64,000 bases of DNA from Gryganskiella cystojenkinii (lineage: Eukaryota > Mortierellomycota > Mortierellomycetes > Mortierellales > Mortierellaceae): the NCBI GenBank assembly GCA_015852425.1, contig JAAAIG010000050.1, forward strand, positions 1-64,000. The letters are read 5' to 3'. The position numbers and the translations under genes were made by a program. Below, in pieces: positions 22,218-60,040 of this stretch. The notes under the pieces are model-generated. The model saw only the letters and a list, made by a program, of their open reading frames with translations, was not told where the DNA came from and ran no database searches. Within the stretch, counting starts at the first letter, position 1. Every line of letters begins with the position of its first letter.

Positions 22218-22506
22218 CTGAAGACATGTGTCTTGTCAGCAATTTCTGTCATCCAGCAGGACTATGCCTATTTCGTGGAGCGAGTCTTGGTCAACGACAT
22301 TTTTGGGTTTTGGTCGCCGATGGCGATGGTCCTGGGTTTTCAAGGGTTGGATCTTTAACCAAGGTAAGCCGGATCGCACGCACTACGCTGTTATTGTCGC
22401 CTCTGGAAACCATTCTTCTCTTGACGTTATGTTGCCTCCAATGCCATTATCTCTTCCTGTCAATGTTACCGACATCGCTACCACCTCTCGCTACAAGTCG
22501 TGTTAA
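22218..22506 (+). pseudogene. Six-Cys secreted family, truncated copy
   Basis: Only the C-terminal half of a family member remains. The frame begins at the TTC-like motif (LKTCVLSAISVIQQDYAYFV), continues through ERVLVNDIFGFW, shifts frame around 22320-22350, and ends KGWIFNQGKPDRTHYAV, VASGNHSSLDVMLPPMPL, RYKSC-stop. The signal peptide, first four cysteines and start codon are missing. It is the outermost copy of the left array. Confidence 0.75.
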
Positions 22507-23070
22507 AAAATACAATATACTGTTGTTTATCTCCTAGGCGACCTTGGCTTGGCTCTAATTTTTGTCCTCTTCATTCGTGCATACGACAAGAGGGGAGGTG
22601 ACAGTATTAAATAAACAGAAAAGAGGCTGAAGAGTGGCACGGCAAGATCATTGGTGGCCATGCGAGAGTTTTTTTATAAAAGTAGGACCTACTGTTCAGA
22701 TGATGGGGGCTTGCGGAGGCTGTACAAGCATCGTGCAATTCGTCATGCACTGTGTCGCTGGTCCTAAGGTCACTTTTAGCTTTCATGGTAATAGACCTCA
22801 TCCGAAGAAATCACTGTTGAAGGATGACAAAAGATAATTTTCTGTTTCCTCGGACCTTTCTACCCTTACACACCTTTCGTTCTTTCTCCCTGTCAACGAT
22901 ATCCACTATTTTTCTTCTCTATCTCCTCTCCCAATGTATCCAATTTCTTGAAAAAAAAGACCACCATCGCTTCCCTTGCGTACACTTTCCGTCGATACGG
23001 TACATCAACTAACAAGTGACCTCTCTCTCTTTATCTTTACTTTAAACCAGTGCTTTTTTATTTAAAAATC
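22507..23070. promoter_or_regulatory. Upstream region of family copy 23071
   Basis: About 560 bases. A TATAAAA box lies at 22675-22681, about 390 bases before the ATG. Long CT-rich stretches precede a likely leader-intron acceptor (TTTAAACCAG at 23041-23050), 20 bases upstream of the ATG. Confidence 0.45.
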
Positions 23071-23622
23071 ATGAATCTCGCCCTGTTTGCCCTCGTCGTC
23101 GCCTTGACGATCACGCTTTTGGATCCGTCAGTCGCCGCGGTGGACCCTGTTCAGTTTCAAAACATTATGCTCGCGGAAGGATACGGATGCCGGACCGCGA
23201 AATACACTCCGAGCTGTGACAATATCACCTCCATGACCTACCCACGATGCACCTACCTGGCGTCGAGCATCGATATGGCACCAAAAGTGGAGCACTGCGT
23301 CTTCCATCCGAGCGGTCTTAACCTGACAACATGTTTTATTTTCAGCAAGGGTGTTCAAAAGGAGGATTTCAACTACTTGCTCGAACAGACGCTCTTTTTC
23401 AAAAACATCTTTGGTTTCCGTTCCACCACAGGAAATGAAAATTCCGCGCGAGGTTGGGCCAAGGGTTTCATTTGGACCAAGGCTTTTACTTACTACACTT
23501 ACTATGCAGTCTCGATCGCTGCTGGATCTCATGCGACCCTTAATACTACCTTGCCACCGATGCCCTTGATTTGGCCGGCTAACCGTACGAGCACACTGAC
23601 TCCTATCAAGGCTGCATGTTAG
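23071..23622 (+). CDS. Six-Cys small secreted protein
   Basis: 183 aa, no intron in the coding part. The signal peptide (MNLALFALVVALTITLLDPS...AA) is followed by VDPVQFQNIMLAEGYGC. The six cysteines are in family spacing: GC-RTAKYTPS-C, then YPRC, EHC, NLTTC and the C-terminal KAAC-stop. Other family blocks are present: FNYLLEQTLFFKNIFGFR, ARGWAKGFIW, YYAVSIAAGSHATLNTTLPP. In the left array it is the odd one out: its TPxC and TTLPPMPL blocks are closer to the copies at 44-49 kb than to its neighbours at 24-28 kb. ATG 23071 is preferred over an upstream in-frame alternative because it starts the signal peptide right after a splice-acceptor-like CAG. Role unknown; I expect it to be secreted and disulphide-bonded. 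Confidence 0.85.
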   Translation: MNLALFALVVALTITLLDPSVAAVDPVQFQNIMLAEGYGCRTAKYTPSCDNITSMTYPRCTYLASSIDMAPKVEHCVFHPSGLNLTTCFIFSKGVQKEDFNYLLEQTLFFKNIFGFRSTTGNENSARGWAKGFIWTKAFTYYTYYAVSIAAGSHATLNTTLPPMPLIWPANRTSTLTPIKAAC

Positions 23623-24403
23623 AACTGCCACGAAGTTTTTTCTTTCTTTGAAGTAAAAAAATTCGCCTAGAGTGCATATTTACTTTTCTATCTTTTTGCT
23701 GACGATGAAGTCTGGAACGGTAGGACAAGCCTTACTGTCCTGCTTGTGCGTACGAAATAGGTGAAACTCCAGCGAAAGAGGCTTGGCCCTTGAAACTCCT
23801 GAACCAACTGAGGGAGAATAGGCAAAAGAGGCGTCATGTTGAAAGACATAAAAAGACTGTGGGCGGACTCTTAGACGCGTAAAAAAATTATATCGGACAC
23901 ATTCGTTGTATGCTCAGACAAAGATAAAATAAAAGAATTGTATCTTTTCAACTAGTTTGTATCGAAAGAAGGCAACGAGGATCAACAGATGGGGTAATGA
24001 ATGAGTACGAAGGGGCGGCAATGGAATATCAGGGGCGGTACATCCCCAAACAAAAAGCGGTCGCAAAGATAGTGCATATTGTCCTTGTAGCTGGCCCTGA
24101 TGTAATAATAAAAAGACTCAGCTCAACAAACACAAAAGGTCTCCAAATGTTCTTTGGCTCTTCCTCTTTTTCTACCCACTGCCTTTCTTCTTAACCTCTA
24201 CTTCCACGTCCACGTCCACGTCCACGTCCACTTCCACTTCTCTCCAAGCCTCTGGTTTTTCTCCACTTTTACGTTTCTGCGCTGGTAAGTTGTTTTCTGC
24301 GAAACACTGCCACGCTTTTGCACTGTTCACCGTGATCCCAAGCACAGGACCGCTAACAAGTTCCGCCCATTCTTTCAGCCCTTGAAAACACCGCGTCTTC
24401 GAC
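23623..24403. other. Intergenic within the left array
   Basis: About 780 bases. It holds the promoter and leader of the next copy, with a leader-intron acceptor TTCTTTCAG about 25 bases before its ATG, and the 6-bp minisatellite at 24203-24240. No gene seen. Confidence 0.4.
24203..24240. repeat. Minisatellite of 6-bp TCCACG/TCCACT units
   Basis: About six tandem hexamers, TCCACG four to five times and then TCCACT, in the presumed leader region of the next family copy. It does not fall in a coding frame I accept. Confidence 0.85.
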
Positions 24404-24824
24404 ATGATGAGGTTCGTCTTGGTCGCAACTACAGTCGCTTTGGTGATAGCCCTCCTTTTGACTCCTTCAACCCTGGCTGATGACATCAGAGACAGAGGAT
24501 CTGGTCGGATTTCACCTGTTAGGTTCGACTACATCGTGAGGAGCCAGGGATGCAAAGATAACGTGTACCATACGGAATGCAAGCGCGGTGGTCTGGACGC
24601 CGCCAACTACGTTGGTTGTGAAATCAACTGGTATATCTCCGATACGCCCGCAAGGCTATATCGAGAGCAAATCGTCCTTTCGTGGGGTCACTTACTCGAC
24701 CTATTTCGGAGCTTATATCCGGCAGGGCATGTGGTCGACACTTTGGTCCAGATTGCCAAAGACAGACCCGTTCGACTTTCCTGAAAAAATAGTCCAGAAA
24801 GTAGAACCTAATCCCAATTGCTAG
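24404..24824 (+). pseudogene. Six-Cys secreted family copy with internal deletion and frameshift
   Basis: The N-terminal half is intact: signal peptide MMRFVLVATTVALVIALLLT, VRFDYIVRSQGC-KDNVYHTE-C and NYVGCEINWYISDT. Then about 70 residues covering cysteines 4 and 5, the FGF block and the start of the WAQG block are missing. Sequence resumes in another frame at GYIESKSSFRGVTYSTYFGA, continues YIRQGMWSTLWSRLP, and ends PNPNC-stop at 24824. In the original frame translation runs 126 codons to 24784 with an unrelated tail. It is closest to the copies at 26078 and 28094. An intron is unlikely because no donor/acceptor pair accounts for the missing coding blocks. Confidence 0.8.
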
Positions 24825-26077
24825 AACCAAGGAAATAAGAGAGGTTGCAAGTAGAATAAAAAGTCGAGGGTCCTTCAAGAGTTGCCTCTGTGTCCGCGTC
24901 GCCGCCTTACGGAAAAGGGCAAAAAGGTTTCCTTTTTCGCGCTGTATCTCTCCGCGTCTCTGTATTGCTAGCTTTTGGCGCGAGTACGATTGATGGACGA
25001 AGTTTTCTCCACATGCATCATCGCATCATCGCATCAACAATCCTGACCTCTAAAAATACTCATTGAAGAAAAGGAAGGGGGATGAACCAGAAAAGGTGGT
25101 TCATCGAATCACTTGTTTCAAGGCGGAGGTGAAGTGAGAGTCGGCAACGTTAAAGAGCAAAACATGTAGGGTCAACGACATGACTTGGTGCAGGAGACTA
25201 AAAAGAGTCAGAGAAAAGGAGTCTCGGTCGGATTGGCCTATCAATAGATCAAAAGACTATAGATTGTCTTATGCCTGTGCGAAGACAGAGACCCTCTCGA
25301 ACTCGCGAAAGGCGACAATGCGGTGCGGGTAGAAAGCGTGACTCGATGAGGGATGTCCAATATAAAGACCGAAGTGTGGATTTTCTCGCTTGTGAAAAGA
25401 AGACACCATCCTCATTATCGTCACCACGAGCCGGGGGCTTTGATTTGTGGCTGCAAAAAATATCCGACGCATTTTTTTTATTTTTTTGATCCAGCCCCAA
25501 CGCGCAAAAAATGAGAAATCTGAGAATGGAGAAGAGAACATGAAGAGAGGCTAGGATCAGTTCGCGAAGGAGGCGACACATGCAGAACAGAGGCGTGGCA
25601 AAGGAGTTAACAGAGAAAGGATGGTTCAAGATGCGAAGAGAACAGCAAAACTAAAAACTAAAAAACGGTGAATGAGAGGATTGAAACACAAAAATACGAA
25701 GAGTGGCGACACGGTAAACTTGATAATGCAGACGAGAATTCCCCGCGCCAAGGCGAAAAAGAGTTCGACGCTGATTAGGCGCTGAGTAGGCATAAAAGAG
25801 AACGCTGTTCGACAAAAATCGTCAATCTCTAATCCTCTACTCAACGCTTTCTCTCTCTCTACCTAGCGCTCTATCTCATATTCTACGTGCTTCCTGTTCA
25901 AGAGCCAGCTTTTTTTTGATCTGATACTAATTTTCCAAGGTAAAAGTTCGCTGCATGATGTTCTCGCACACGCTTTTGTTATCCCTCTATCCTCCCCCAG
26001 CAGATCAACTAACAATATTTACAAGGTACACACCGAATTTTTTATATGTCACCCTTGGGAACAGGTTTCCTGAAAGG
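24825..26077. other. Intergenic within the left array
   Basis: About 1.25 kb with no convincing gene. The right end has a CATAAAAG box at 25791-25798, a CT-rich stretch (about 25845-25870) and an acceptor-like GGGAACAG just before the next ATG. Confidence 0.4.
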
Positions 26078-26689
26078 ATGAGGTTCTTTTGGACAGCTTC
26101 TGTGGTCTCTCTAGTCATAGCCATCTTTTTGACTACACCGGCATTGGCGGACTCCGATCTCATCGTGGATACGATCTCCGATCTGTATAAACCGGTCAAA
26201 TTTGATAATATCATCAGAACCGATGGATGCGCGAGTGGTCGGTACCATGCCCTGTGCAAGCCTGGTCGTATCAACCCTGCCAGTTATGCGGGTTGCGAAA
26301 TCACAATGTTTCTCTTAGACAGCCCAGTTCCGGCCAACCAAGAAACGTGCCTTTATCACAACAGTGGTCTGGACGTGACAACCTGCTTTCGCTTTGGTTA
26401 TCAGACGGATCCCGGTGATGTCAACTATCTCCTTTATCGGATCCTTTGGGACGATCTTTTTGGGTTTTTCGATATTGGAGGCATGGGCATGGCGAATTAT
26501 GCTTGGGCGCAAGGCTACGTATATAGCAATCCCGACTCTAATGGGCTCAATCATGGGACTCATTACGGCGTGTTTGTCCGGCAGGGCAGGTGGTCGACGC
26601 TTGAATCCACGCTGCCCGACACCAGCGTGGTCCAGATGACTCAAAACGTACCAATGCGAGTCAAACTTGACACCAATTGCCAAAAGTAA
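26078..26689 (+). CDS. Six-Cys small secreted protein
   Basis: 203 aa. Signal peptide MRFFWTASVVSLVIAIFLTT, mature part with VKFDNIIRTDGC-ASGRYHAL-C, SYAGC, NQETC, GLDVTTCFRFGYQ, DVNYLLYRILWDDLFGFF, YAWAQGYVY and THYGVFVRQGRWSTLESTLP. Unusually, the last cysteine is followed by two residues (NCQK-stop); in nearly all other copies the cysteine is terminal. The frame is open 41 codons further upstream, but that part is leader-like and contains a splice-acceptor-like GGAACAG next to the chosen ATG. Closest relative in the window: 28094-28666. Confidence 0.84.
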   Translation: MRFFWTASVVSLVIAIFLTTPALADSDLIVDTISDLYKPVKFDNIIRTDGCASGRYHALCKPGRINPASYAGCEITMFLLDSPVPANQETCLYHNSGLDVTTCFRFGYQTDPGDVNYLLYRILWDDLFGFFDIGGMGMANYAWAQGYVYSNPDSNGLNHGTHYGVFVRQGRWSTLESTLPDTSVVQMTQNVPMRVKLDTNCQK

Positions 26690-28093
26690 AGAGGACGGGT
26701 TTCGAAATAGACCAATAAAAAGTCAAAAGAAAGATGTACGTTGCTTATCGTCGAAGTTGTGTAGATCAATCCCACGAACCTATTCTTGAACAGGATGGGG
26801 CATCGAAAAAAACCTCCTCAACTGCACTTTGCAAAATTTTCAATTTACGACTGGGTTCTTTTCCTCGGTGGGCTTGGGATCGATCGGTCCAGCGACTATT
26901 TTCATTGACAAACCCTTGCCTCTGAATTTTTTTTAAAAAAATTTAAAAGAAGGAAGGCAAGAACGAAGCACGGAGAAAAGAGAGCTTCGGTGTTTTTCTC
27001 GAACTTGGGAAGGGTAGGCACAAGAGGCGGGACAGCGAAGCTAAACCACAAAGATGGACACGATCTTTAACGTGGCTCGATTTTGGAGTCAGTGGAACAA
27101 AAGTGCCTGATAAAGATGATTGATTGAGAAGGCGAGGAGGACACATAAAGAACCACAATATAAACGTAAATGAGCAGAACTAAAAGGGCAAAGGTGGCGA
27201 CAAGGAGATGACCTTGAAGCGTAAATAAACGAAGAATATTTCTCTTGCTCGTCGTCATTAGTGGAAGGCAAGGGAGGGGGAGGGGGGGGGGTTGGCGCCT
27301 CTCGTCGACTTCTAAAAAGTTCCTGGACGCATTTCTCGTCTCCCACCGCTATCCGGATTCTAGCCTCTTCCGCCTCATATCGTCCACCACTTGTTGTCGC
27401 AGCCCCCGACCCCCAAAAACACAATTGCCAGAAGGAAAGGAAAGGCACACACAGAGAAAAGGCATACCCGGCAATGGTGTGGTAACATGCAACTAGCTTG
27501 ATCGTCCCTCGATAAGGAACGAAGAAGGAAGAGTGAGTTTAGCATGACCCCTACTCTGGTATATGTTTGATAGTTTGGCACAAGTAGTGAAAGAATTAAG
27601 GAGTGGCTCAGTAGCAGAGAAATTTCCATGGATCCCGCCACAATGTGTGGCTGCCTGCTTTGGGGCGAGCACGCGAGAAGGCAAAATCTCTTGGCCACTG
27701 AGATGCTTGCTTGGCTTAATTAAAGTGATGGGGGGAGGGGATGCCCTTGGAGAATATCGCTTAACGTTTTAGAAAAAAAAAGCGGGGAGGCTGTTCTGGC
27801 GCACATTAGCGCTTATAAAAAGGGTCCTTGACGAACAACTGTGGTCCCTTGGGATTCCTCTCGTGCACCGACTCACTTTATCTCTCTCTGCTCGCCCTCC
27901 TTTAAGCAAAGTTATCTTCCCCCGTCAGCACCAACAAACTTCCTCCGCTCGGTAATTTCTTTATTCATGCGCATTTCGCTTCTGCGTCTTTCTTTCATCT
28001 CCCTCTCTGACACAAAACCAAAATACAAGGTCACATACCATATCTCTATTTTTCTTCTTGGTTGCATTCTTCATAAGCAGTTTCCTTGAAACC
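26690..28093. other. Intergenic within the left array
   Basis: About 1.4 kb. It contains a G-rich run at about 27267-27291 and a TATAAAA box at 27814-27820, about 275 bases upstream of the next ATG. A leader-intron acceptor CATAAGCAG ends about 15 bases before that ATG. A 63-codon minus frame at 27258-27067 has one hydrophobic segment, but nothing else supports it as a gene. Confidence 0.4.
27814..27820 (+). promoter_or_regulatory. TATA box of six-Cys family gene 28094
   Basis: TATAAAA in a locally GC-richer context, positioned so that transcription would start about 30 bases later and leave a leader of about 250 bases with an intron. Confidence 0.55.
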
Positions 28094-28666
28094 ATGAAGT
28101 TCACCTGGATTGTGTCCACGGTCGCTTTAGCGATAGCGCTTTTCTTGACTCCAACACACTCGGCGACTGACTTCGGTTTCGATCCGTTTACACCGGCCAA
28201 GTTCCAGAACATTATGAGGAGCCAAGGATGCAACAATGGTCTTTACCATCTCAAGTGCAAGCCTGGTAGTATCGACAGTGTCGGCTTCAAAGGTTGCGAA
28301 TACTTTTGGATCAAGGTGGATCTTCCGGCCAACACAGAATACTGCATCTACCACGACAGTGGTCTGGACGTGACGACTTGTTTCATCTTTAGCAACACTG
28401 TCCAGGCTCAGGACTTCATGTACTTTATTTATCGGATCTTTTACGACGACATTTTTAATTTTTATGAAGGCGGCGGTCTTGGGATTGCGTCCAAAGCCTG
28501 GGTTCAGGGTTGGATCTGGAACGATGACAAGAGCTATGGGACCTATTATGGAGTTTATCTCCAGATGAGTCCCTGGAAGACCCTCGGAGCCCAATTGCCT
28601 GATACGAGCTCATTCAAATGGCCAGAGAATATGTTGTTGAGAACAAGATCCGATCGTAATTGCTAG
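28094..28666 (+). CDS. Six-Cys small secreted protein
   Basis: 190 aa and a good type example of the family. Signal peptide MKFTWIVSTVALAIALFLTP; then AKFQNIMRSQGC, eight residues, C; FKGC; NTEYCIYHDSGLDVTTCFIF; FIYRIFYDDIFNFY; SKAWVQGWIW; YGTYYGVYLQMSPWKTLGA; and DRNC-stop. The cysteine spacing is C-x8-C-x12-C-x15-C-x11-C-xn-C(end). Six cysteines without membrane helices after the signal peptide fit a compact secreted protein with three disulphides (inference). It is the last copy of the left, plus-strand array; the next gene is conserved and converges on it. Confidence 0.88.
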   Translation: MKFTWIVSTVALAIALFLTPTHSATDFGFDPFTPAKFQNIMRSQGCNNGLYHLKCKPGSIDSVGFKGCEYFWIKVDLPANTEYCIYHDSGLDVTTCFIFSNTVQAQDFMYFIYRIFYDDIFNFYEGGGLGIASKAWVQGWIWNDDKSYGTYYGVYLQMSPWKTLGAQLPDTSSFKWPENMLLRTRSDRNC

Positions 28667-46010: not shown

Positions 46011-46108
46011 TCGGCTACAAGTGCATAAAAAGTTGTCGTGCCTTTATTCACTTGAGAGTGGCGGGCCTAGATATTCTTCCTTTCGTTTATGAATTGTTCA
46101 CGGTGTAC

Positions 46109-47087: not shown

Positions 47088-47997
47088 NNNNNNNNNNNNN
47101 NNNNNNNNNNNNNNNNNNNNNNNNNNNNNNNNNNNNNNNNNNNNNNNNNNNNNNNNNNNNNNNNNNNNNNNNNNNNNNNNNNNNNNNNNNNNNNNNNNNN
47201 NNNNNNNNNNNNNNNNNNNNNNNNNNNNNNNNNNNNNNNNNNNNNNNNNNNNNNNNNNNNNNNNNNNNNNNNNNNNNNNNNNNNNNNNNNNNNNNNNNNN
47301 NNNNNNNNNNNNNNNNNNNNNNNNNNNNNNNNNNNNNNNNNNNNNNNNNNNNNNNNNNNNNNNNNNNNNNNNNNNNNNNNNNNNNNNNNNNNNNNNNNNN
47401 NNNNNNNNNNNNNNNNNNNNNNNNNNNNNNNNNNNNNNNNNNNNNNNNNNNNNNNNNNNNNNNNNNNNNNNNNNNNNNNNNNNNNNNNNNNNNNNNNNNN
47501 NNNNNNNNNNNNNNNNNNNNNNNNNNNNNNNNNNNNNNNNNNNNNNNNNNNNNNNNNNNNNNNNNNNNNNNNNNNNNNNNNNNNNNNNNNNNNNNNNNNN
47601 NNNNNNNNNNNNNNNNNNNNNNNNNNNNNNNNNNNNNNNNNNNNNNNNNNNNNNNNNNNNNNNNNNNNNNNNNNNNNNNNNNNNNNNNNNNNNNNNNNNN
47701 NNNNNNNNNNNNNNNNNNNNNNNNNNNNNNNNNNNNNNNNNNNNNNNNNNNNNNNNNNNNNNNNNNNNNNNNNNNNNNNNNNNNNNNNNNNNNNNNNNNN
47801 NNNNNNNNNNNNNNNNNNNNNNNNNNNNNNNNNNNNNNNNNNNNNNNNNNNNNNNNNNNNNNNNNNNNNNNNNNNNNNNNNNNNNNNNNNNNNNNNNNNN
47901 NNNNNNNNNNNNNNNNNNNNNNNNNNNNNNNNNNNNNNNNNNNNNNNNNNNNNNNNNNNNNNNNNNNNNNNNNNNNNNNNNNNNNNNNNNNNNNNNN
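47088..47997. other. Assembly gap (910 N)
   Basis: Run of N in the middle of the repetitive array. Apparent open frames across it are artefacts. The true length may differ from 910. Confidence 0.99.
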
Positions 47998-48302
47998 ACC
48001 CTCCCTTGTTTTTGTCTCTTTTACTTCTTTTGGCTTCTATCGCTCTTCATGAATGATAGATGCTCGTCTTTCATTTCAAAAATGACCTGGCTACACTTTG
48101 GCCGTGCTCAAAACAAACCTCTGCTCCATATTCCTCACAACTGTTATCGAACGGAACTCACACAAGAAACTAGTGGAATTGTAAGGCAAAGTCGCAACAA
48201 CGTTTTCTTTTCTTTGCCATTACCCCTCACGAACATGGCTGTCTGTGCAAAATCGCACGCTTTCTATTTATCTTTACGTTTTGATTCTACGACTTCACAG
48301 GT
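47998..48302. other. Intergenic after the gap
   Basis: About 300 bases, 3' flank of the next copy; nothing coding seen. Confidence 0.35.
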
Positions 48303-48860
48303 CTAGCATGTGGCCATAAAAGGCGTACGAAGCGAAGCCGTTTCGTTGGCAGGCCAGCTCAATGGCGTGAGAGGCAGTGTGGTATTCAGGGAATCGTGTT
48401 GTCCAGAGGCGATTGACAGTGCATAATAAGTGCCATATGTCCTTTCCTTGTTATAAATCCATCCTTTGGCCCAGCCCCTGGAAGCATAACCGGTTCCCTT
48501 GGGTGAACGAAAACCGAAGGTGTCGTTCGTGAGGATCAGACCGAGCAAGTAATTTATGTCGTCCTTCAGAACAACACTACCGAAATTGAAGCAGGTTGTC
48601 ATATTGAGACCACTCGTGTGGAACAGACAGTGCTCCACGGTCGGAATACTGGCATTATCAGTATTGAAGGTCAAATATGTGCAATTGCCTGTGGCGACAC
48701 CTGTGTTGTTCATACAGTTAGGAGCGAAATCGTTGTTGTGGCATCCGAATCCGTCAGCTCTCCACATTTTCTGGAACAGAACAGGATCTGCCGCGGTGGC
48801 AAGAACAGCGAAAAGAGTGGTCGCCAGAGCAGCAATGGCGGCGAACGAGAAGACCTTCAT
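48303..48860 (-). CDS. Six-Cys small secreted protein
   Basis: 185 aa. ATG 48860 is chosen: it starts the signal peptide MKVFSFAAIAALATTLFAVL right after an acceptor-like CGAATAG, although the frame is open 95 codons further upstream through leader-intron sequence. Mature part: VLFQKMWRADGFGC-HNNDFAPN-C, TGNC, TVEHCLFHTSGLNMTTCFNF, INYLLGLILTNDTFGFRSP, SRGWAKGWIY, YGTYYALSIASGQHDSLNTT, MATC-stop. A GGTAATTTG donor at about 48972 would give a leader intron of about 100 nt. Confidence 0.88.
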   Translation of the reverse strand: MKVFSFAAIAALATTLFAVLATAADPVLFQKMWRADGFGCHNNDFAPNCMNNTGVATGNCTYLTFNTDNASIPTVEHCLFHTSGLNMTTCFNFGSVVLKDDINYLLGLILTNDTFGFRSPKGTGYASRGWAKGWIYNKERTYGTYYALSIASGQHDSLNTTLPLTPLSWPANETASLRTPFMATC

Positions 48861-49523
48861 GGAAACTATTCGCGATAGCAAAAAAAATGTCGAGGTTCCC
48901 TTTGTTAAACATTGTGAGATCGAGGAGAACGAAAAGAACGAGAAGAGAGACAAGGGGATGAAGGTCAAATTACCGTTTGGATGTGGAATTAAAGAGCGAG
49001 AAAGGGTTTGGTATGTGACACGGTCGTAGAAAGAGTGAGAAAGGCGTAAAACACTTGAGAAGTTGTGAGTTCCTTGCTGATGAGAATTCCCAAGCTTCCT
49101 TTTATGTTTATCACAGAATACACTTTCAGAATTGTGTCTTGTCACTCTGGTTGGTGATTGACTTCGTCTGTTATCTTGCTTGTTGGTTTAGCAGCCCCTC
49201 GGCTCTGACTCTTTTTCCCTTTTGATAATCCAGCAGACAACTATTGTTCTGTTGCGTGCAGCCTCTTTCTTTTTCATGATCATTACAACGCTTTCATCTG
49301 TCTAATTTTGATTTCATTTTTCTTGCCCCTGGCGCCTCTTTCGCGATTTCCGCAACTCTCCCACTTTGGCGCAATATGACTTTACTCTTGTACGATTTAC
49401 CGGTGCGGATCCTTCTTACCACTACTCCGCTCACTTTCTCTCTAAAAAAAGAAACCTCTCTCGAGTCGTACACTATTGTTGCGTCTTTTTTTATTCAATG
49501 TTGAAACTAGTATCTGTCATTGT
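48861..49523. other. Intergenic within the right array
   Basis: Leader intron and promoter of the copy at 48303-48860, then T-rich spacer. Nothing else coding. Confidence 0.35.
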
Positions 49524-50049
49524 TCAGCAAAATGGATCAAGAGGAGAGCCTCTAAAGACATATCTCCTGTAATTCCTAATGTGTTGGAGGGGATCGTAGT
49601 GGTAAGAGAGCTCCACTGTCCATTCAGTATAGACATCCCAAAGGCAACGCCAGTGCCGTTCAACGGTTCAAACCGTCCATGGACTCAGCTTTGGTGGAAG
49701 GACCTGATCCGTATATTTTGCGAAAGCCAAAGATATCGAACCAGAGCGTCAGCGCGACCAATTCATTTGAGTCGGCCCTGACCACATCCTGGTCGTATAT
49801 GAAACAAGCTGCGAAGGGAATATCAATGGAGGGACCGAGACAGACAGTGCTCTTGATTATTGCCTTGAAGATCGCCACCAAATATCACGTAACCGCAATC
49901 ACCTTGAAGGTGATAACTTCTTCCACAAGAAGAGCGTACACTCCGTTGTGGCATCCCTCGGGCTTTATCACGTTCAGGATGTTGCTGAGTTCAGGGGGAA
50001 TATAAATGGCGGTTGGTGGGGCAAGAAGAGTGGTTACTAAAGCGACCAT
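49524..50049 (-). pseudogene. Six-Cys secreted family, frameshifted full-length copy
   Basis: It starts with ATG 50049 (MVALVTTLLAPPTAIYIPPE), then ILNVIKPEGCHNGVY, after which a stop follows in the C2-C3 part. Family sequence resumes as IDIPFAACFIYDQDVV and LTLWFDIFGFRK. A further frame change leads to GTGVAFGMSILNGQWSSLTT, and the end PFC-stop lies in a third frame at 49524. At least three lesions. Closest to the 52582 and 54026 copies (SILxGxW block). Confidence 0.75.
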
Positions 50050-50789
50050 GGTGGCCAAAGAACAACTATGTGGTTTGAATGTGCTGATGTCAAAAACAAA
50101 TAAAAAAAACCCTGATTTTGTAAGTTTAAGCGGTAGAGACTGAAACCCCCCAAAACGTTCGCCAAGAGTGTCTAAGGACAGAGATTACCTATCCGGGGAC
50201 AGTGTCCAAGAGAACGAGAACACGTAAGAGCAAGGACGAGACACAAAACGAGAGTTGCAACCAGTCGATGAAATCGTGAGAGTGGCTTTCCCGTTGTTTT
50301 CCCGTTGTTATTTTCGCTTTGATGTTGGAGTCTTTTCGTATCCCCACTCCCTGTATGCGTGTTTTTGTGTAGGCTCTAGGTAAATTTGTTCCTTTAGGCA
50401 GCCTTGCTTCATTTTTAGTTCAGGCTTACTTTGCCTCTCCCCACCTCATTTCTATCTAGACTTGTCTCTTTGTATATTTATTACGTTGACCGTGGGTCTT
50501 CATTTGCGACTCAAATTACGCATTCTTACAGAAAAGAGTTTAAATCATGTTGAGCTCCCCTCGTGGATTGGCGATTGAAGGACAGGGAAGCGGTACCTTT
50601 GGAGCGTGTTCTTCCTTTCTTTCCTTGGCAAACGCCACTTTGTGGTGATGTCGGTTTGTAAAAAAAGGCCAGGGGCAGTGGTCAGCCAACAGGTGATAAA
50701 TCTCGAATATTCTCAGGAGCAAGAAATAGCATTTTATGGCCTTTTCATTGATGGCTAATTTGCCTACAAGAAAAATATACTTCGATCGT
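50050..50789. other. Intergenic within the right array
   Basis: Former leader and promoter of the pseudogene (a GGTAATC donor remnant near 50190), then T-rich spacer without coding signal. Confidence 0.35.
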
Positions 50790-50957
50790 CTAGCAAGAGG
50801 ATTTGCGTGGAGTATTCATTATCACCGTGTCTGGCCAAGCAAAACCAACAGGGGGCATATTGATGCTAAGGGTTAGGAATTCTCCAGCTATGATAGACAC
50901 TCCAAAGCGAATCCCGACGTCGCTTCCAGTTGCAAACAGCATATCCTTGACAAACAC
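50790..50957 (-). pseudogene. Six-Cys secreted family, C-terminal fragment
   Basis: About 55 codons in one frame: VKDMLFATGSDVGIRFGVSI, then IAGEFLTLSINMPP, and PRKSSC-stop at 50790. This matches the end of the family (compare GMMYVVGHTAGVRYGLSIMQ in 52582-53112). Everything upstream of the WAQG block is missing and is replaced within a few bases by an unrelated open frame. Confidence 0.72.
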
Positions 50958-50963
50958 AGTTAA

Positions 50964-51503
50964 CTAATCCACTGGCGACGATGGTGTGAATGGAGTGCGA
51001 GAAAGGGAAGGGGACGAAGTGGCAGAATGAGACGGCGATGGGCCAATAGGGGAGGATGCAAGGTTGGAAGTGGCATTCAACCTTGCATGACTATTTTGAT
51101 ACAAGACGGAAGCATCACGCTTCCTCTGAACCTGCTGGAAAGCGTTGATTGTCTTGAGCAAAGACATACGAATGCGAAGGAGGTGTACGACAGCCTGCAT
51201 ATGTGGTGTAGAATCATCGGCAGTTGTAGGAAGGCTGTATGGCTCGTGTTTATGAAAGAGGGACACATAGCCACGGGGTGCTGGGCGAAGCTCGAACGTT
51301 ATAAATCCCTTATCTCCTGTATACGCAGCGAAAAATCGGGCTTCTTCTCGAAATCGTTCATCCTGGGCTTCCTGCATTCGGTGTGTCATGATCGTATGGG
51401 TCTCCCGGAAGAGATCAATGCCATTCTCTCGGATGAATTTACTCGAGTGTGGATCCCAGACATTCATGCGCTCTACCAGGAACCAATCTTTCTTGTTGAC
51501 CAT
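50964..51503 (-). CDS. Hypothetical protein or gene fragment
   Basis: 179-codon open frame with amino-acid composition of a real protein: DWFLVERMNVWDPHSSKFIR, a helical region with ETHTIMTHRMQEAQDERFRE, RFFAAYTGDKGFITFELRPA, LLRIRMSLLKTINAFQQVQ, and a Ser/Pro-rich tail ending SSPVD-stop. I do not recognise it. An acceptor-like CTCCGGCAG at about 51525 would place its first exon further upstream, but upstream frames are broken, so it is probably the 3' part of a truncated gene. Its stop codon lies 7 bases from the family fragment at 50957, suggesting a rearrangement point between them. Confidence 0.45.
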   Translation of the reverse strand: MVNKKDWFLVERMNVWDPHSSKFIRENGIDLFRETHTIMTHRMQEAQDERFREEARFFAAYTGDKGFITFELRPAPRGYVSLFHKHEPYSLPTTADDSTPHMQAVVHLLRIRMSLLKTINAFQQVQRKRDASVLYQNSHARLNATSNLASSPIGPSPSHSATSSPSLSRTPFTPSSPVD

Positions 51504-52581
51504 GTCACGAGCAATTAAACTGCCGGAGGTAGTTCCGGGTGCAGTTATAATGCAAGCCCATCATGACATGCAGGAATGGCCACAGAGATACATCATGCTG
51601 AGAAGCATGGTGATCACACCTCTGCGTTTGCGTTGCGTTGGTGCGAAAAAGTAAAACGGTGATACTGAATCGAAATTACATCCCATTTTACTTACTGATT
51701 TATCCATTATGTTACGTCAATTGTCAGGCGACGACAACGCGTGAGCGATGGGGGGAAGCGGACGAAAGGAGGAAGGAATGGCAAATTCGGTAAATGAAAA
51801 AAGTGTGCGTGATAGCAGCAAGTAATGATTTAGGATGGAAAGGATTGTTGTGCTGCGATAGTTGAAAATAAGGCTGCTTTCTTGGCAAGGGTTGATGGCA
51901 ATGGTCAGTTGACCTATCATCTGGTGACGTAATAACTATTTTCATTTATTTCTTTTTTGGGTTTACCGCACCCGCCACTACACACTGCTGATCCTGTTCC
52001 TGAGCGCGTTCTGCTGAGGCGGAGGATTAAGTGGGATCGAGTGAGTTCGACTGCGATTTTTTTTTCTTGAAGATCCGCCTCGTCTCTTATGTGTAAGTGG
52101 CGTTGAACATTACACACTTCAGTCTATTGTGGTTCTACGTGAGGGGCAATCGTTCCCTGGTCTCCCTCCCGAGCTCTCTCAACTTCAAAATGTGGAAAAA
52201 TCTGCCCAGCTGACCGACCATCTTTAGTGTATGAGCCACATTTACCACGCCTCTTCTTGCGTCGCGCCAATGAGTTCATTCATGAGACCACGACGAGAAA
52301 CAGATCCGTGGATGACGCTTTATGCCCTGGAAGGATAAGCAGGAAGAACAAAGGAGAAACAAACGAACGATGAATCGGGAAAAGTCTGATAAGAGAACCA
52401 AGCTCTATACTTTTACTAATCGGGATACGACCCAAAAACTCGTTTTCTTCAGCATCTCATCGAATTGACGTTTGAATATGGAAAGACCAAGGGGAAAGTA
52501 GGAACACTAATCATCAGGGCGGAAAAAGAATAGCAGCTTACGCCATTCGTGGGTGGAGTTTTCATGATGGCTCATATCTAT
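51504..52581. other. Intergenic within the right array
   Basis: About 1.1 kb with no supported gene; may contain remnants of upstream exons of the fragment at 50964-51503. Confidence 0.35.
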
Positions 52582-53112
52582 CTAGCAATAGTAATTGTAA
52601 GGCGTAGTCAAGACCATGCCCACTTGCCAATTGATCGGAGACGCTGGTAGAGAGGTGGATAGAGAGTCCCATCGCCCTTGCATGATTGATAACCCATAGC
52701 GAACTCCGGCTGTGTGACCAACAACATACATCATTCCCTGAGTCCAGGCCTTGGTGGAAATCTCTGCTCCTTTCGGCCCTCGGAAGCCGAAGGTATCGTA
52801 CTTGAGGACAAACGAGATCAACTTGTTTACTTGGTACGAAGCCATCTCTTGGTCAAAGATGACACAAGTGGTGAAATCATAATCATTTGAAGGGCCAACG
52901 CAATATTCTTGGTTGACTTTCAGCACACCAGTGAACCCCCAGTAAAGGCATTGATTCGATCCGCAAACAGGAAAGTATATTCCGTTGTGGCATCCATCAC
53001 TCCTCTTGATGTCCGTGATGTCGCTTGCCTCCGGAGGGATGTCAGCGGTGACTGACATAGCCAACAAAGTGACCGCCAAGGTGGCAATAAATACAAACGA
53101 AACCTCTTTCAT
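52582..53112 (-). CDS. Six-Cys small secreted protein
   Basis: 176 aa. Signal peptide MKEVSFVFIATLAVTLLAMS, then SDITDIKRSDGC-HNGIYFPV-C. The C2-C3 loop is the shortest of the family (GSNQC), then NQEYC, YDFTTCVIF, VNKLISFVLKYDTFGFRGP, TKAWTQGMMY, GVRYGLSIMQGRWDSLSTSL, PYNYYC-stop. Forms a subgroup with 54026-54571 and the pseudogenes at 49524 and 50790 (HNG[IV]Y, PYNYxC ends). An acceptor TTCAATAG precedes the ATG by 8 bases. Confidence 0.87.
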   Translation of the reverse strand: MKEVSFVFIATLAVTLLAMSVTADIPPEASDITDIKRSDGCHNGIYFPVCGSNQCLYWGFTGVLKVNQEYCVGPSNDYDFTTCVIFDQEMASYQVNKLISFVLKYDTFGFRGPKGAEISTKAWTQGMMYVVGHTAGVRYGLSIMQGRWDSLSTSLPASPINWQVGMVLTTPYNYYC

Positions 53113-54025
53113 AGTTGAGTCCTATTGAAGAACGGGAGAAAAGTACAAAAGAGCTCTTGTTAAGATACTTGTGGTGAAACACTCAGTGCGCAGAGAGGTG
53201 TATGTTACAAGATACAAGAAAAGAAGTGACAGGTAAGGAATGAGGGTCCAAAAATACTTGTAGTTTTGGGACAGTTGGGAGTCTGTGGGGGAATCAAGTG
53301 AGTGAGTGAGATGGGTCCCGTCTTGTGGTTTTTGGCATTTTCTGTTGGCGAGTCTTCTTGTCTTATATACACTGCCCTCTTTGATCTAAACTGCTTTTGT
53401 TGACAGTTTTGTCGATGGCATTGGCAGTGACGCGTGGATCGAATATCCAGGCGCTGTCTTTTGTACGCCTTTGAGTCCTACCATCTTAATAAAACATTTT
53501 GCCATGATAGCCACGATAACCACTTTTTTCATGAAGCGAGGCACAGTTGGCATCTTCAAATTTATGTTTTTTATACGACCAAGCCTCTTTTTTCTCTCCT
53601 TGTTCGGTGCACCATACCGCGTCCAATTTTAGATAAACCACAAAAGCCACCGGACAAGTCGCCTGTGTACAAGATCCAATTAACTTTCTTTCTTTATCTG
53701 TTGACGTCGCAATGAGTCTATTGGAGGGTGTGCGTGGCTTGGTTCTCGGATGCGATCCACGAAGTCGCATTGCAAGTGGTTGTGCGGGAAAGGTGAATTT
53801 TGTCTTGGTCGACCCAGGAGTAAACAGATTTTATGCGTGCTAATTGCACTCGAATATTGCGAAACAGCACTAGAGGTTCACTTTTTTCTCATTTCCCAAG
53901 ATCGTACAAAGACAAGATGGCGGATACAAGAGGAGAACAATGGATTTTTCTATTCAAAAAGCGAACAGAAAACTAGCCTTTTTGAAACGTTTTCTACGAA
54001 ACGTGCTATAATACATTATCTGATT
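53113..54025. promoter_or_regulatory. Upstream region of copy 52582-53112
   Basis: Leader-intron and promoter sequence with a TATATAAG box at 53362-53369 (minus strand), about 250 bases from the ATG. The rest is spacer without coding signal. Confidence 0.45.
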
Positions 54026-54571
54026 CTAGCAAGAGTAGTTGTAAGGCGTGATCATAACGACATTTTGTGGCCAATTGATTGGAGAAGAAGGGATGCTGGT
54101 GGACAGGGTACCCCAATTTCCATGCAGGACTGAGATACTAAAGATGGTCCCGAATTGATACCCGGTGTACGAGGAGTAGAACTTTCCCTGAGCCCAAGCT
54201 CTGGTAGAAAACCCGACACCATCGGGTCCCGCAAAGCCAAAGATATCAGCCACGAAAACAAGCCAGATCAAGTAATTGACATCCACCTTTGTAACGAGTT
54301 GATCGAACTTGAAACAGATTGTCAGGTCGTACGGGACTTGGTAGATACAGTGCTCTTGTAAAGGTTGAAGATCTATCGTAAAGGCGAGTATGGTGCAAAA
54401 AGCTGGAAGTGCCCTGTTTCTGGTAGTACATGTGCTATTGTAAACGCCATTGTGACATCCTGCGCTCCTGTAAAGTTGCATGTTGACGCTATTTTCTGGG
54501 AGAATATCTGCATTGACCGTCGGAGCCAAAAGGGCAACTACCAAAGCGGCGATCAAAGTCACCGTGAACAA
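54026..54571 (-). CDS. Six-Cys small secreted protein, start codon not ATG at the usual place
   Basis: 181-codon family frame: LFTVTLIAALVVALLAPTVN (signal peptide), LYRSAGC-HNGVYNST-C, PAFC, LQEHCIYQVPYDLTICFKF, VNYLIWLVFVADIFGFAGP, TRAWAQGKFY, FSISVLHGNWGTLSTSIPSS, PYNYSC-stop. All six cysteines are kept, but the codon where the others have ATG reads TTG (54571). A spliced alternative exists: a 21-nt exon 54722-54702 (ATG TAT TCA GTC TTT ATC ACT, then GTAAG) joined to an acceptor at 54586 gives an in-frame start and a fuller signal peptide (193 aa). Without that splice the copy would be silent. TTC is reduced to TIC before cysteine 5. Confidence 0.68.
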   Translation of the reverse strand: MFTVTLIAALVVALLAPTVNADILPENSVNMQLYRSAGCHNGVYNSTCTTRNRALPAFCTILAFTIDLQPLQEHCIYQVPYDLTICFKFDQLVTKVDVNYLIWLVFVADIFGFAGPDGVGFSTRAWAQGKFYSSYTGYQFGTIFSISVLHGNWGTLSTSIPSSPINWPQNVVMITPYNYSC

Positions 54572-54722
54572 TTTCTTCGCGAATGGCTTTTCTCAAAAGA
54601 GCAAAAAGAGAAAGAATAGCGCAATAGCTCCTGTTAGTTATGCCGTAACGGTGATTGAGAGAGTGTACGCGGATTAAAATTCAGAAGGGAAAATATCTTA
54701 CAGTGATAAAGACTGAATACAT

Positions 54723-55414
54723 CTCTTGGAAGAAAAGTGATGTGAGCAAATGGTCGGAGAGACTGAGAGACTAGTTGAAATTGGGAGTGCTATGTTCTTG
54801 GTCGGTCGCTATTGCTCTTTGTGGGAGTCGTTGCTCGTCGGTTACATCTCCCTTTTATGTCATTTCAATGCCAGTAGTACTCTTTTCCAGCTTCCCTGTT
54901 TTTGAATGGTGCTATGAATAATGACATACGGACTAATTTTTGGACGACATACATCGAGCGCCTCTGAGCACCATGTCGAAGTGAGACCATTTCGCCATGG
55001 CAACCACATTTTCGAGTCGTTGAGAACCACATTTGCTGCTTTTATTCTGTAGTGCCACCTTTCTTCTTTTGCCTTTTTCGATCCATCCCACATAATTTAT
55101 TTTTACCTTGATTATGCGAACCATAGGTGTAAGGTGGAATACACAAGAGCTCATCTTCCTTTTCTTTGTAGTTTTTGCTCCCTCCAAGTAGACTTGGAGA
55201 CAGCTAACATGAGGAATCGATCGAAAGCGTGATATCTGGGTATTGTTTTGTAGGCAGATTCACTCCATGGCTCAACATGAACAGAAATTACGCGCACTTC
55301 TGTGCCTCAAAAAATCTAATGGTACGCGGTCTATTTTTTTTTTTATTTTGTGTCTTTGTACCTTTCTACTTAGACGGCAGAGAGGAGAATGAGCTACTCT
55401 GTGGTTGGACTGGT
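54723..55414. other. Intergenic within the right array
   Basis: Promoter side of the copy at 54026 and 3' flank of the next; frames here show no family or other protein features. Confidence 0.35.
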
Positions 55415-55966
55415 CTAACATCCCTCTTTATACCAGGCGTGCATTTCCATGTTTGTGGGCCAGGTCATCGGAAGAGAAGGCAACGTGGTGCCAAGAGTAC
55501 GCTGTTCCCCGCCATTAATCGATACGCCATAATAAGTTCCATAGGCATTATCGTTACTCCAGATATAACCTTGCGTCCAGGCCCAGTTGACGACACCAAA
55601 GGTTAGCCGTTCAAAGAGGCCAAAGATATCCTTCCACAGGATCTGCTGGATAAGGTAGTTGGCATCTGCCATCAGGACGACGTTGCTGAATATGAAGCAG
55701 GTTGTCACGTTGAGGTCACTTTGGTGGTAGATGCAATGCTCCTTGTTGGGCTGAAGGTCGCTGGTGAACAAGACGTAGGCGCAATTCGCGGTCATGATGC
55801 CTCTACTGCTTTGACAAGTACCATGGAACTGCCCGTTTGTGCAACCTGTGCTCCTCATGATGTTCTGGAAGTTGGCGGGTTGGAGAGGTGGGACGTAGGC
55901 AGCGATCAGCGGAGCGAGGATGATAGTAGCCAGGGTGGCCATGGAAGCAATTGGGAAAAACTGCAT
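55415..55966 (-). CDS. Six-Cys small secreted protein
   Basis: 183 aa from ATG 55966 (MQFFPIASMATLATIILAPL), chosen because it starts the hydrophobic signal right after the leader acceptor TTTGACAG. ANFQNIMRSTGC-TNGQFHGT-C, TANC, NKEHCIYHQSDLNVTTCFIF, ANYLIQQILWKDIFGLFERL, NWAWTQGYIW, YGTYYGVSINGGEQRTLGTT, KEGC-stop. Most like the copies at 56944 and 58287 in the first half, but with the YHxSxLxVTTC block of the left-array copies. GGTAACGAGG at about 56074 is a fitting leader donor. Confidence 0.87.
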   Translation of the reverse strand: MQFFPIASMATLATIILAPLIAAYVPPLQPANFQNIMRSTGCTNGQFHGTCQSSRGIMTANCAYVLFTSDLQPNKEHCIYHQSDLNVTTCFIFSNVVLMADANYLIQQILWKDIFGLFERLTFGVVNWAWTQGYIWSNDNAYGTYYGVSINGGEQRTLGTTLPSLPMTWPTNMEMHAWYKEGC

Positions 55967-56943
55967 AGTCGGGAAAACTGTCAAATGCGACAAAAATAGT
56001 TAGATTATATTAATACCTTGTCTGTTGTTCATACGGTCAAAAAGCATATGAATGCCAAAGAAAACCTCGTTACCGCGTCGGAATATCGTGTTAAGGAATG
56101 GAGGAGATATTGAAAGTGAGATCGATGAGCTAGAAAAAAATGGGAGGAGAGAGAGAAAGAAATAAAAAGAGAGGAAATGAGACTAGAAGAAGGTGCGACG
56201 TCTAATTGATTGACCGTCTTTGTTGGTCATCCCTTCTGCTATGAGTATCCAAAACCGGAACAGTCCTCTTTTTGGATTGAGCTCATCCACCTGTAGGTAA
56301 ATTGCGTCTGTGACAGATGGCCAATTATTTACACAGCTTTTATGCAGCCCCTGTAAGCTTTTCTCCCTGGAACCATTTGTTCCACTAACACCATCCTTCT
56401 CATCCACACACCCTTTTTTTGAGGATTTTAGTTGACACTGTGGGCTATCTGTTCGTCGTGGTTACGCCAGTGCATCTCGTCTATTATATGAACCATGCCA
56501 ACCATCTGTTTGTTCTTTTGAAATGGTAACGTATGGCTGAAACGGTATTGTTTTGATAGCTTGTGGTTTCCAGACGATGGCTCTGTGGAGCGAAACGTGT
56601 AGAATTTCCATGCTGAGCCCTCGCACAGTTGTATTATTGTTTTTGTTTGTTTTTTTTTTTAACTCTCAGCAGTCGGTGCGCAGGAATAAGCTGTAAGGTT
56701 GTTCACTCATAAAACGAAAATAAAAACGTTCGTCCTGTGTTTTATTATTCGTGATGAGAATACTAAAGAGAGCGAAAAGAGAATGCAAAGTGGACCATCG
56801 CTTCGTCCTGTCGGTCATGTCTAGCCGGAGTCGCATAAACAGAACGACATGAACATAGTCCAAAGATGAATGCAAGGACTCATTATCGGAATCTATTGTT
56901 GAAGGAGAATGTCTAGTTGGTGTTCCTATGAACTATGTGCGGT
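55967..56943. other. Intergenic within the right array
   Basis: About 980 bases: leader and promoter of the copy at 55415-55966, then AT-rich spacer. No gene seen. Confidence 0.35.
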
Positions 56944-57480
56944 CTAGCATGCGGAGTGAACAGGGGTTTTCATGCTCTTATCATCTAGCCATGTCATTGC
57001 ACCCGCGTTTGTAAACAGAGTGGTGTTGAGTGTACTATGTTCTCCAGTGGCGACCTTGAGTCCAAAGTGGGCTCCGTACGTCGTGTCGGCCCAAACGGTG
57101 CCCTCGACCCACGCCTTGGTGGCAACGCCGCCAGAAGGCCTATAGATACCAAAGATATCGGCCCAGAGGATTTGCTCAAGAAAAAAATTGAAATCGGCAC
57201 TGAATACGGGTTCGTCAAAGATGAAACAGGCTGTGAGATACAAGGCTTCTTCTTGAAAGATGCAGTATTCTTGATACGGTTGAAGGTCATCGGGGAACCC
57301 CCAGATTGAGCAAACCCCGTGAGCATAGGCATTGGGCTTACAGATCCCATAGAACACGCCGTTGTTGCAGCCGCTCGCCCTCGCAATGTTCTTGAAGTTG
57401 ATGGGATTCGTCGCGGTGACTAAAGGAGCTGAAAGAGCTACTGCAAAGGCGACGAAGAACGCGATCAAGGAAAACTGCAT
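56944..57480 (-). CDS. Six-Cys small secreted protein
   Basis: 178 aa. Signal peptide MQFSLIAFFVAFAVALSAPL, then INFKNIARASGC-NNGVFYGI-C, AHGVC, YQEYCIFQEEALYLTACFIF, FNFFLEQILWADIFGIYRP, TKAWVEGTVW, YGAHFGLKVATGEHSTLNTT, HSAC-stop. The FGF of most copies is FGI here, as in 58287-58817. Acceptor TTGAACAG lies about 12 bases before the ATG and a GTAAGTATGG donor at about 57572, giving a leader intron of about 80 nt. Confidence 0.88.
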   Translation of the reverse strand: MQFSLIAFFVAFAVALSAPLVTATNPINFKNIARASGCNNGVFYGICKPNAYAHGVCSIWGFPDDLQPYQEYCIFQEEALYLTACFIFDEPVFSADFNFFLEQILWADIFGIYRPSGGVATKAWVEGTVWADTTYGAHFGLKVATGEHSTLNTTLFTNAGAMTWLDDKSMKTPVHSAC

Positions 57481-58286
57481 AGATGGCTTGTCTGTTCAAA
57501 GGTTAGGAGAGGAAGAGGAGCGATCGTGTTAGAGGTGACAAAAAACCTTCGAAAAAAGCAAACCATACTTACTAGTCGAAGAAAAACGAGGATGAGGATG
57601 ATAAAGACGGTAAGAGCAACAACGAGAACCCTCGTGGAAATGGTTGAGGAATGAAAGATGATAATTGAGGAGGAAGGAACAAAAGGCCCCCTCTGCTTTT
57701 TGAACTTTTCCCTAGTGTTGAGCACTATTGCTTGGCCATCTGTTAGTGGCAAGTGGTTCAACCGATGTATACAACCCGCCAGCTCCTCGTGGTGTTATCA
57801 CCTGTTGATTCAATTTTTCGAAATTCATTTCCACGCGCCTGATTTTTGCCACGACCCATGCGATCCATCCGTGGTATGTTTTCAAGACCATCTGGTAAAA
57901 CAAGGGCAGGAAAGAAAATAGTAGAGTCCAGAGGGTAGGATGTAACATGTGGATTTATGTCATCGTTGTGTAACGTTTCCGTGCTGATCGCCTCGGCGTA
58001 GGCTTGGGTCTCTTTCCGGCTCACAACTCTTTCTCTTTTTCTAACGCATGCAACGCATGCAGCGGACCACTTCGTATTAATAGGTCCAACCTGTATATAT
58101 ATGCTTTCTCGCTATTGACTCGTACAAGTTACATATCTTCGTGTCCTTCCATGAAACTTAATCGATGACATTGGACGAAATGCAATGGCGAGAGAGAAAG
58201 AGAGAGAGAGAGCATGCGTCTCGAGTCTTACTTTGGAAAAAAAATTGGCTTTAATGCTTCTACATTTGATATATATTTGTCTCTAT
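57481..58286. other. Intergenic within the right array
   Basis: About 800 bases of leader, promoter and spacer. A (GA)n run lies at about 58191-58212. No supported gene. Confidence 0.35.
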
Positions 58287-58817
58287 CTAGCAACGTGGCG
58301 TGCTCATGGTCATGTTGGGTGGGTAGGACAATACTCCCAAAGGCAGACTGGTAGCAAGGGAGCTATGCCATCCAAGCGCGATAGAAACTCCATAGTGGGT
58401 GCCCCAGATTCCGTTCTCGTCCCAAATTTCGCCCTCGGCCCAAGTCCAGGTTGCGATACCGACTCCGAACGGTCCATAGATGCCAAAGAGATCATACCAG
58501 AGGATTTTCTCGATGAAGTAATTGGCATCGGCCTTGAGGATGTTCTGATCGAAAACGAAACAAAGAGTGAGGTCCATCGGAGGCTGTTGGTAGACACACT
58601 GTTCTTGGTTGGCCTTCAAGTCGTCAGCAAACTCCCAAATTTGACAGCCGCCTTGGCCAAGAGGGGCGAAACTTTGGCAGGCTCCGAAGAACTCGCCGTT
58701 GTTGCACCCCTTGCTCCGCATCAAGCTTTGGAACTTGACGGCATTGGTTGCGGTGACAGACGGAATTAAAAAAGCGATCGCGACAGCAAAGATAGCAGCA
58801 GCCGAAAAGTATTTCAT
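58287..58817 (-). CDS. Six-Cys small secreted protein
   Basis: 176 aa. MKYFSAAAIFAVAIAFLIPS (signal), VKFQSLMRSKGC-NNGEFFGA-C, QGGC, NQEQCVYQQPPMDLTLCFVF, ANYFIEKILWYDLFGIYGP, TWTWAEGEIW, GTHYGVSIALGWHSSLATSL, ending TPRC-stop. ATG 58817 is 12 bases after the acceptor TTGTTTTCAG. The upstream donor GGTAAGTTC (about 58938) defines a leader intron of about 105 nt, the clearest example in the family. Confidence 0.88.
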   Translation of the reverse strand: MKYFSAAAIFAVAIAFLIPSVTATNAVKFQSLMRSKGCNNGEFFGACQSFAPLGQGGCQIWEFADDLKANQEQCVYQQPPMDLTLCFVFDQNILKADANYFIEKILWYDLFGIYGPFGVGIATWTWAEGEIWDENGIWGTHYGVSIALGWHSSLATSLPLGVLSYPPNMTMSTPRC

Positions 58818-59545
58818 AAGTCGGATAAACTGAAAACAAAAAAAGTGGGTGTTGTTAATGTACATGTTGGAGGAGGTGGAATTAACATACGCTCTTACGC
58901 GTGTATCCTAAAAAAAGGCAAAGCGGAAAAGAACTTACCGGTAGGGAAGGTGGCGATGTAGAATGAAGGTGGGATGAGGAGGACTTTGATCAGAAGGAGA
59001 GTCTGTCAGTTACCTTCTTTATATACATCCAAAATGCAGAATATCCTGTGTCACTCACTGCCTAAAAACGAAGGCAAAAGGCCAGGATTTTGTGTTCGGC
59101 GTATCCTTCTCGGTGCCACAATTTCGCCAATGAACCATTTGTTCCTTGTGGTCAATTTTACTCCACTTTTTTTTCTGGGGTCGTACCGCATTCCTGGTCC
59201 ATCTCATATTATTTCCTAGTGGCTATTCCAGCATAAAAATAGCGCGCTTTACATACGATCCATTCCGACCTCCTCTATTTCATCTCCATTAAGTTGTCGC
59301 AAACGTCAACAACACATTTCAATTTGTGTGGATGAATTTCCGCAACCAAAAAAATAAAAAAATAAAAATCGCGTGGGTCTTTGTGAACGGGGCTTTTTTC
59401 TTGGGTATGTTCAGATCCATGATCCATGATCCCACAAGACACGCGTATAAAAACGTAGATCATTAGCCCCCTCCAAAAAAAGAGAGAGATGTTGTACGTA
59501 CTTGCGTTCTACATCATTTTTTCTACGAGGTGGCCACTGGATCAT
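58818..59545. promoter_or_regulatory. Upstream region of copy 58287-58817
   Basis: Leader intron, then TATATAAAG at 59017-59025 (minus strand), about 200 bases from the ATG and 80 bases before the leader donor. The remainder is spacer. Confidence 0.5.
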
Positions 59546-60040
59546 TTAACAAGTGGCATTGAAGGAGGTGAGCATGTTTGTAGGATTGAAAAGAGAGTCT
59601 GAGGGCGGATATCCTCTAGTCAGATCGACGTCGGGAAAGAGAGAGTGGTGTTCGTAGAAGCAGGACTATCTATTACGGATGAAAACCGGAATATGCGCCA
59701 TGTGTTCCAGGCGTTTCTGAGAATGTAACAGACTATTGTACTCCATCCGTTTCACCTTAAGAAAATGGAAATGTCGAATGTCTAACCATTCGTGATACGA
59801 AGACGCAAGGACCTCTGACGTCCTAATGGCAGCTAGAGACCCGACTCTTTGACGGGCTGAAGATCGTTCGAGTACGGCATGTAGGCACAGTTGGCGCTTT
59901 TGATATCCGCACCATTCGCCCAACAAGGTGGAGTGTAAACAGCCCTATGGCACCCAAGGTTTTCTCCTCTCCAGATGTTTCGGAACTTTAGATGTGTCGT
60001 TACGTTGTCCTGGATCTTTGGCGGTTTCGTTGTGCATTGG
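59546..60040 (-). pseudogene. Six-Cys secreted family, broken copy at array end
   Basis: Both ends of a family member survive. The N-terminal half reads LKFRNIWRGENLGC, HRAVYTPPC, IKSANCAYMPYSNDLQPVKE and then stops. The last block reads EHHSLFPDVDLTRGY and FNATC-stop at 59546. The central TTCF, FGF and WAQG blocks are missing or scrambled, and no signal peptide or ATG is recognisable upstream. It is the outermost copy of the right array. Confidence 0.68.

Follow-up and report, generated by a model that had tools for sequence, protein, structure and literature searches.

We identified, in the 64,000-nucleotide stretch analysed here (the window, bases 1-64000 of contig C553), a tandemly duplicated family of secreted-type, six-cysteine proteins, which is supported by profile scan, alignment and hydropathy. 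We give an about even chance to the reading that its members are secreted three-disulphide proteins with a Gnk2/KP4-type sandwich, acting extracellularly in a lectin- or killer-like manner. The six-frame profile scan yielded 19 family loci, 11 full-length frames and 8 remnants; the full-length matches scored 219-267 bits, and the reversed-sequence control returned a single frame at 7.9 bits. An earlier note had counted 18 copies, eleven open and seven broken. The cluster itself stood, but its count rose to 19 with a locus beyond the range of that note (60756-60935), and the profile scan and start-codon check now give ten complete members, one doubtful (54026-54577) and eight remnants. The loci form a plus-strand group (22182-28666) and a minus-strand group (43897-60935) about 15 kb apart, with the starts of successive loci within a group about 0.4-2.2 kb apart.

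All 11 full-length frames are single-exon and match the profile. Complete members on the plus strand lie at 23071-23622 (183 aa with six Cys; entry P0001 of the protein database), 26078-26689 (203 aa) and 28094-28666 (190 aa). Those on the minus strand lie at 44351-44923 (190 aa), 46109-46657 (182 aa), 48303-48860 (185 aa), 52582-53112 (176 aa, with a short C-x4-C third spacing), 55415-55966 (183 aa), 56944-57480 (178 aa) and 58287-58817 (176 aa, its frame also running upstream to an ATG at 58865). The remaining minus-strand frame, 54026-54577, is full-length and open, and its signal-like segment is preceded by no ATG in the same uninterrupted frame; a spliced start could conceivably supply the initiation codon.

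Remnants on the plus strand were found at 22182-22485 (profile positions 71-174 in two frames, the N-terminal part gone) and 24407-24821 (positions 1-69 and 136-179 in two frames, the middle absent). On the minus strand they lie at 43897-44185 (positions 36-130, three frames), 45704-45980 (positions 78-96 and 143-167, E 0.09 and 0.03), 49550-50061 (positions 5-172 broken into four pieces, with changes of frame and a stop inside), 50793-50951 (C-terminal positions 127-179 only), 59842-60000 (positions 24-73) and 60756-60935 (positions 121-179, with a stop). Two of these score near the reversed control by profile and rest on DNA or tblastn matches: 45704-45980 (9.8 and 8.3 bits) matches the 46109 gene at the DNA level (E 3.9e-7) and is stretched to 45665 by tblastn, and 60756-60935 (11.7 and 12.1 bits) has a tblastn E of 1.3e-10. 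Introns are not apparent as the cause of the broken window copies, whose pieces overlap in changed frames or lack the middle or one end.

Several other features adjoin the loci. A berberine-bridge-like, FAD-binding oxidase with an N-terminus that looks signal-like by eye (20288-21793, minus strand) borders the plus-strand group, and a permease gene (34464-35999, minus strand), 100% identical to BGZ83_008180 of the Mortierellaceae fungus Gryganskiella cystojenkinii, sits between the two groups. A run of 910 N at 47088-47997, between copies 46109 and 48303, could conceal a further copy. Directly beside remnant 50793-50951 lies an unrelated 179-aa open frame (50964-51503, minus strand) for which a Pfam search gave no match. 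Other contigs hold 13 more matches to it, of which 5 contain stops and 10 fall inside its first 80 residues, and it may represent a multi-copy, dispersed element or a fragment of a gene.

Alignment covered 12 full-length sequences, namely the 11 window frames (the doubtful 54026 included) and a copy on contig C601. The six fixed cysteines described earlier were borne out: they are invariant and occupy the same columns in all 12, and none of 2000 residue shuffles gave even one invariant Cys column. The GC-x8-C spacing likewise held, C1-x8-C2 being present in 12/12, while C4-x11-C5 occurs in 11 (x10 in 54026) and C3-x15-C4 in 10 (x17 in two). As had been noted, the final cysteine is usually the last residue (10 of 11 window copies; two residues follow it in 26078). 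Further residues invariant in all 12 are G18, T65, F70, W107, G110 and L135, and the FQNI-, W- and YG-type blocks of the earlier description were found in the alignment as FQNI-, W-x2-G and YGxxYGVSI-like blocks, together with a TLxTTLP-like one. The 11 window copies share a mean column identity of 45%; with C601 added and mature parts compared, it is 42%. The proposed signal peptide is matched by a hydrophobic N-terminal segment in 12/12, judged by hydropathy rather than a signal-peptide program (12-residue maximum 2.39-3.08). With this segment, six Cys and lengths of 176-217 aa, the proteins have the features of the small secreted cysteine-rich class. Mature proteins, taken at crude cleavage points, are acidic in 11/12 (pI 4.5-6.4, one 8.7), and 9/12 sequences carry N-glycosylation motifs. 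Counted without a chance control, a TATA-like site lies at -208 to -287 in 7 of 11 window copies, and a GTAA-type splice-donor-like site lies about -90 to -140 from the ATG of several, which suggests that the copies have promoters of their own and perhaps an intron in the 5' UTR.

The own-genome search, with three members as queries against 35 Mb in 1050 contigs, gives copy counts that are lower bounds. No more copies were among the matches listed for C553 past 60935. The full copy on C601 (P0122, 217 aa) matches BGZ83_008632; the same contig carries a family fragment (L054:3173-3331, 21 bits by profile scan). Two small secreted-looking proteins, alike by eye, adjoin the C601 member (L054:6372-6746 and 7594-7950, minus strand) and had no match in a Pfam search. 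A copy on contig C168 is interrupted between profile positions 93 and 96 by a 119-base gap (L055:4122-4240, minus strand) that starts with GT and ends with AG; this is most simply an intron, which probably makes the copy the thirteenth full-length member. The intron-like gap is absent from the full-length copies in the cluster and from C601, and may mark the ancestral gene structure. In both the C601 and C168 members, the N-terminal stretch ahead of the first Cys is longer than in the cluster.

Searches of known families returned nothing related. The Pfam search that the earlier note had proposed gave no match for 8 members at E <= 1, for all 12 at E <= 10, or for P0122; at E <= 10 the profiles of DUF26 (PF01657), KP4 (PF09044) and Hce2 (PF14856) each matched 0/12, and the DUF26 motif C-8X-C-2X-C is absent from all 12. 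These three profiles had no match in the fungus's own genome either, yet control genomes were also silent at the cut-off. The best NCBIfam E was 0.017, in one of 12 members, the best PHROGs E was 0.32, and PDB sequences gave a single unrelated chain per query (E 0.55-0.94). A bacterial or viral origin was considered and rejected for lack of relatives, using two query proteins with six short peptide patterns each: genome_contigs gave 31 and 4 pattern matches, none confirmed, and viral_contigs gave 7 and 0 and no relatives. Two family searches of a protein database rich in Mortierellaceae proteins returned one protein each, both from this fungus. That search is blind at about 35% identity, each run having missed a known paralogue (P0001 or P0122), and thus restriction of the family to the species is not established. 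The run that missed P0122 had been built from 11 proteins and returned just one of them, the rest perhaps being absent from the database. Partial listings of the literature surveyed for the phylum name no Mortierella family of KP4/Gnk2 type. By sequence comparison, then, the family is not DUF26, KP4 or Hce2. The earlier remark that this layout belongs to no known named family stands at the level of sequence, for the libraries searched (Pfam, NCBIfam, PHROGs, PDB sequences), and perhaps not for the fold.

Structure models were obtained for the mature parts of 55415-55966 (pLDDT 85.6, pTM 0.81) and 48303-48860 (pLDDT 80.8, pTM 0.78). Both VIA rankings are headed, at low Z, by the same five related entries, which span the greater part of the domain. 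They comprise a killer-like effector, two plant DUF26 ectodomains, an antifungal lectin and a glycan-binding protein of fungal origin. Foldseek gave no significant match, and none of the five was among its 50 rows listed. The link once drawn to antimicrobial, effector or recognition proteins is reduced to a weak but repeatable fold lead from the five best rows of two models. Among viral structures, searched with the first model, nothing appeared at E <= 0.001; the P1 protein of a Ustilago maydis virus (second rank, E 0.37, prob 0.18) was not taken as evidence.

By fold, one of the closest known systems is the KP4 family (PF09044) with the Zymoseptoria effector Zt-KP4 (8ACX), from which the present members differ in having no Pfam KP4 or Hce2 match, no helix 1 in the models and a cysteine pattern of their own. 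KP4 activity is marked by growth inhibition and an effect on calcium channels. Another is Ginkbilobin-2/DUF26 (PF01657), including PDLP5 and PDLP8. That fold has an antiparallel beta-sheet at its centre, topped by two helices; the first helix is missing in our models. In the plant DUF26 domain, C-x8-C lies near helix 2; here it follows strand 1, and the DUF26 motif is absent. DUF26 has been reported as land-plant specific. Zt-KP4 has been termed an Hce2-domain protein (PMC11952758). Of the fungal lectins Y3 (Coprinus comatus, 5V6I) and LDL (Lyophyllum decastes), Y3 is the weakest of the five neighbours and LDL is in neither VIA list, an absence that excludes nothing. The models' strand order fits; the strands are conserved and the hairpins variable (entropy 2.16 and 2.55 bits vs 0.81 in strand 3). 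The models weakly but consistently resemble fungal killer proteins and antifungal plant lectins.

The strongest competing explanation, which we regard as possible although the less probable one, is that the proteins have a beta-rich secreted fold that is new and has no relation to Gnk2/KP4. The ranked entries would then reflect no more than a common five-stranded sandwich, and the function would be another one, such as wall structure, inhibitor or carrier. The low Z, the Foldseek result, the missing helix and the different cysteine layout speak for it; the recurrence of five related, largely covering entries in both models and the matching strand order speak against it. Near that group by fold, though not decisively so, the proteins are best classed as a new family at the sequence level, a variant that falls inside the Gnk2/KP4 group or next to it.

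Over 66 pairs (11 window copies including 54026, plus C601; Nei-Gojobori counts) the median pN/pS was 0.60, with pS >= 0.75 in 21 pairs, which are uninformative on selection. Among the 14 closest pairs, 8 had finite dS of 1.3-4.4 with dN/dS of 0.11-0.39, and the other 6 were saturated. DNA similarity between copies is limited to coding parts, complete matches being shared flanks of neighbouring loci. These values therefore indicate that the copies are old and, in the closest measurable pairs, under purifying selection. The family tree, strongly supported on 2 of 9 inner branches, pairs the neighbours 26078 and 28094 (100/99), 44351 and 46109 (99/97), 52582 and 54026 (94/94) and 56944 and 58287 (85/89), and joins 23071 of the plus group to 48303 of the minus group (86/83). 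The cluster looks old, maintained and pruned rather than the product of a recent burst; the picture of a fast arms race is not supported, nor is positive selection as a driver wherever dS could be estimated.

Old maintained paralogues under purifying selection would also suit proteins with a self-directed or developmental role in the fungal wall, in spores or in mating, expressed stage by stage, and so would the upstream TATA- and splice-donor-like sites, uncontrolled for chance. We consider this unlikely, since decay of 8 of 19 copies suggests that single copies are dispensable. Slightly less probable still is a role as effectors or in symbiosis, directed at a partner of the fungus among plants, animals or bacteria. 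The small, cysteine-rich, clustered, secreted-type proteins fit such a role, and KP4-like folds are reported as common among effector candidates (PMC10462633, PMC11952758), but the purifying selection in the closest measurable pairs argues against it. The portions of the genus literature surveyed deal with soil, compost, cave and ant-nest habitats and with a genome review, which gives no pointer to a host but is no test of one. A non-genic repeat or chance frames, for which the many broken copies might speak, is contradicted and dismissed by the profile scan, the coding-only similarity, dN/dS values under 0.4 in those of the closest pairs that could be measured, and six cysteines invariant in 12/12.

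For the secreted Gnk2/KP4-type reading, we envisage a mature domain of about 150-180 residues forming an alpha/beta sandwich of five antiparallel strands and one helix, in which a cystine-rich loop would stand in for the first helix and three predicted disulphides would brace the whole. After putative signal cleavage the protein would act outside the cell, its variable hairpin loops on a conserved core binding a surface ligand, most likely a glycan of the wall of a competitor, a grazer or the fungus itself, in the manner of lectins or killer proteins. The tandem duplicates would differ in the specificity of their loops, and some have decayed. The most probable use would be antagonism towards competitors or grazers; rival uses are roles in the fungus's own wall and effector action on a partner. 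At the surface of the fungus the proteins may serve as weapons or in recognition. More tentatively, and at clearly lower confidence, they could be an undescribed Mortierellomycota family in which the sandwich has lost its first helix to a cystine-rich brace and one locus holds a lectin- or killer-like repertoire whose loops differ in specificity. This would be the fungal equivalent of DUF26 arrays in plants and a branch of the killer-protein superfold that diverged early. If the Gnk2/KP4-type reading is right, a fold common to killer proteins, antifungal lectins and plant immune ectodomains would gain a branch that has no known relatives in sequence. The cluster would then offer ten natural variants of a single scaffold for testing loop changes against ligand choice and, coming from a soil fungus, would be a source of candidate lectins against fungi or nematodes.
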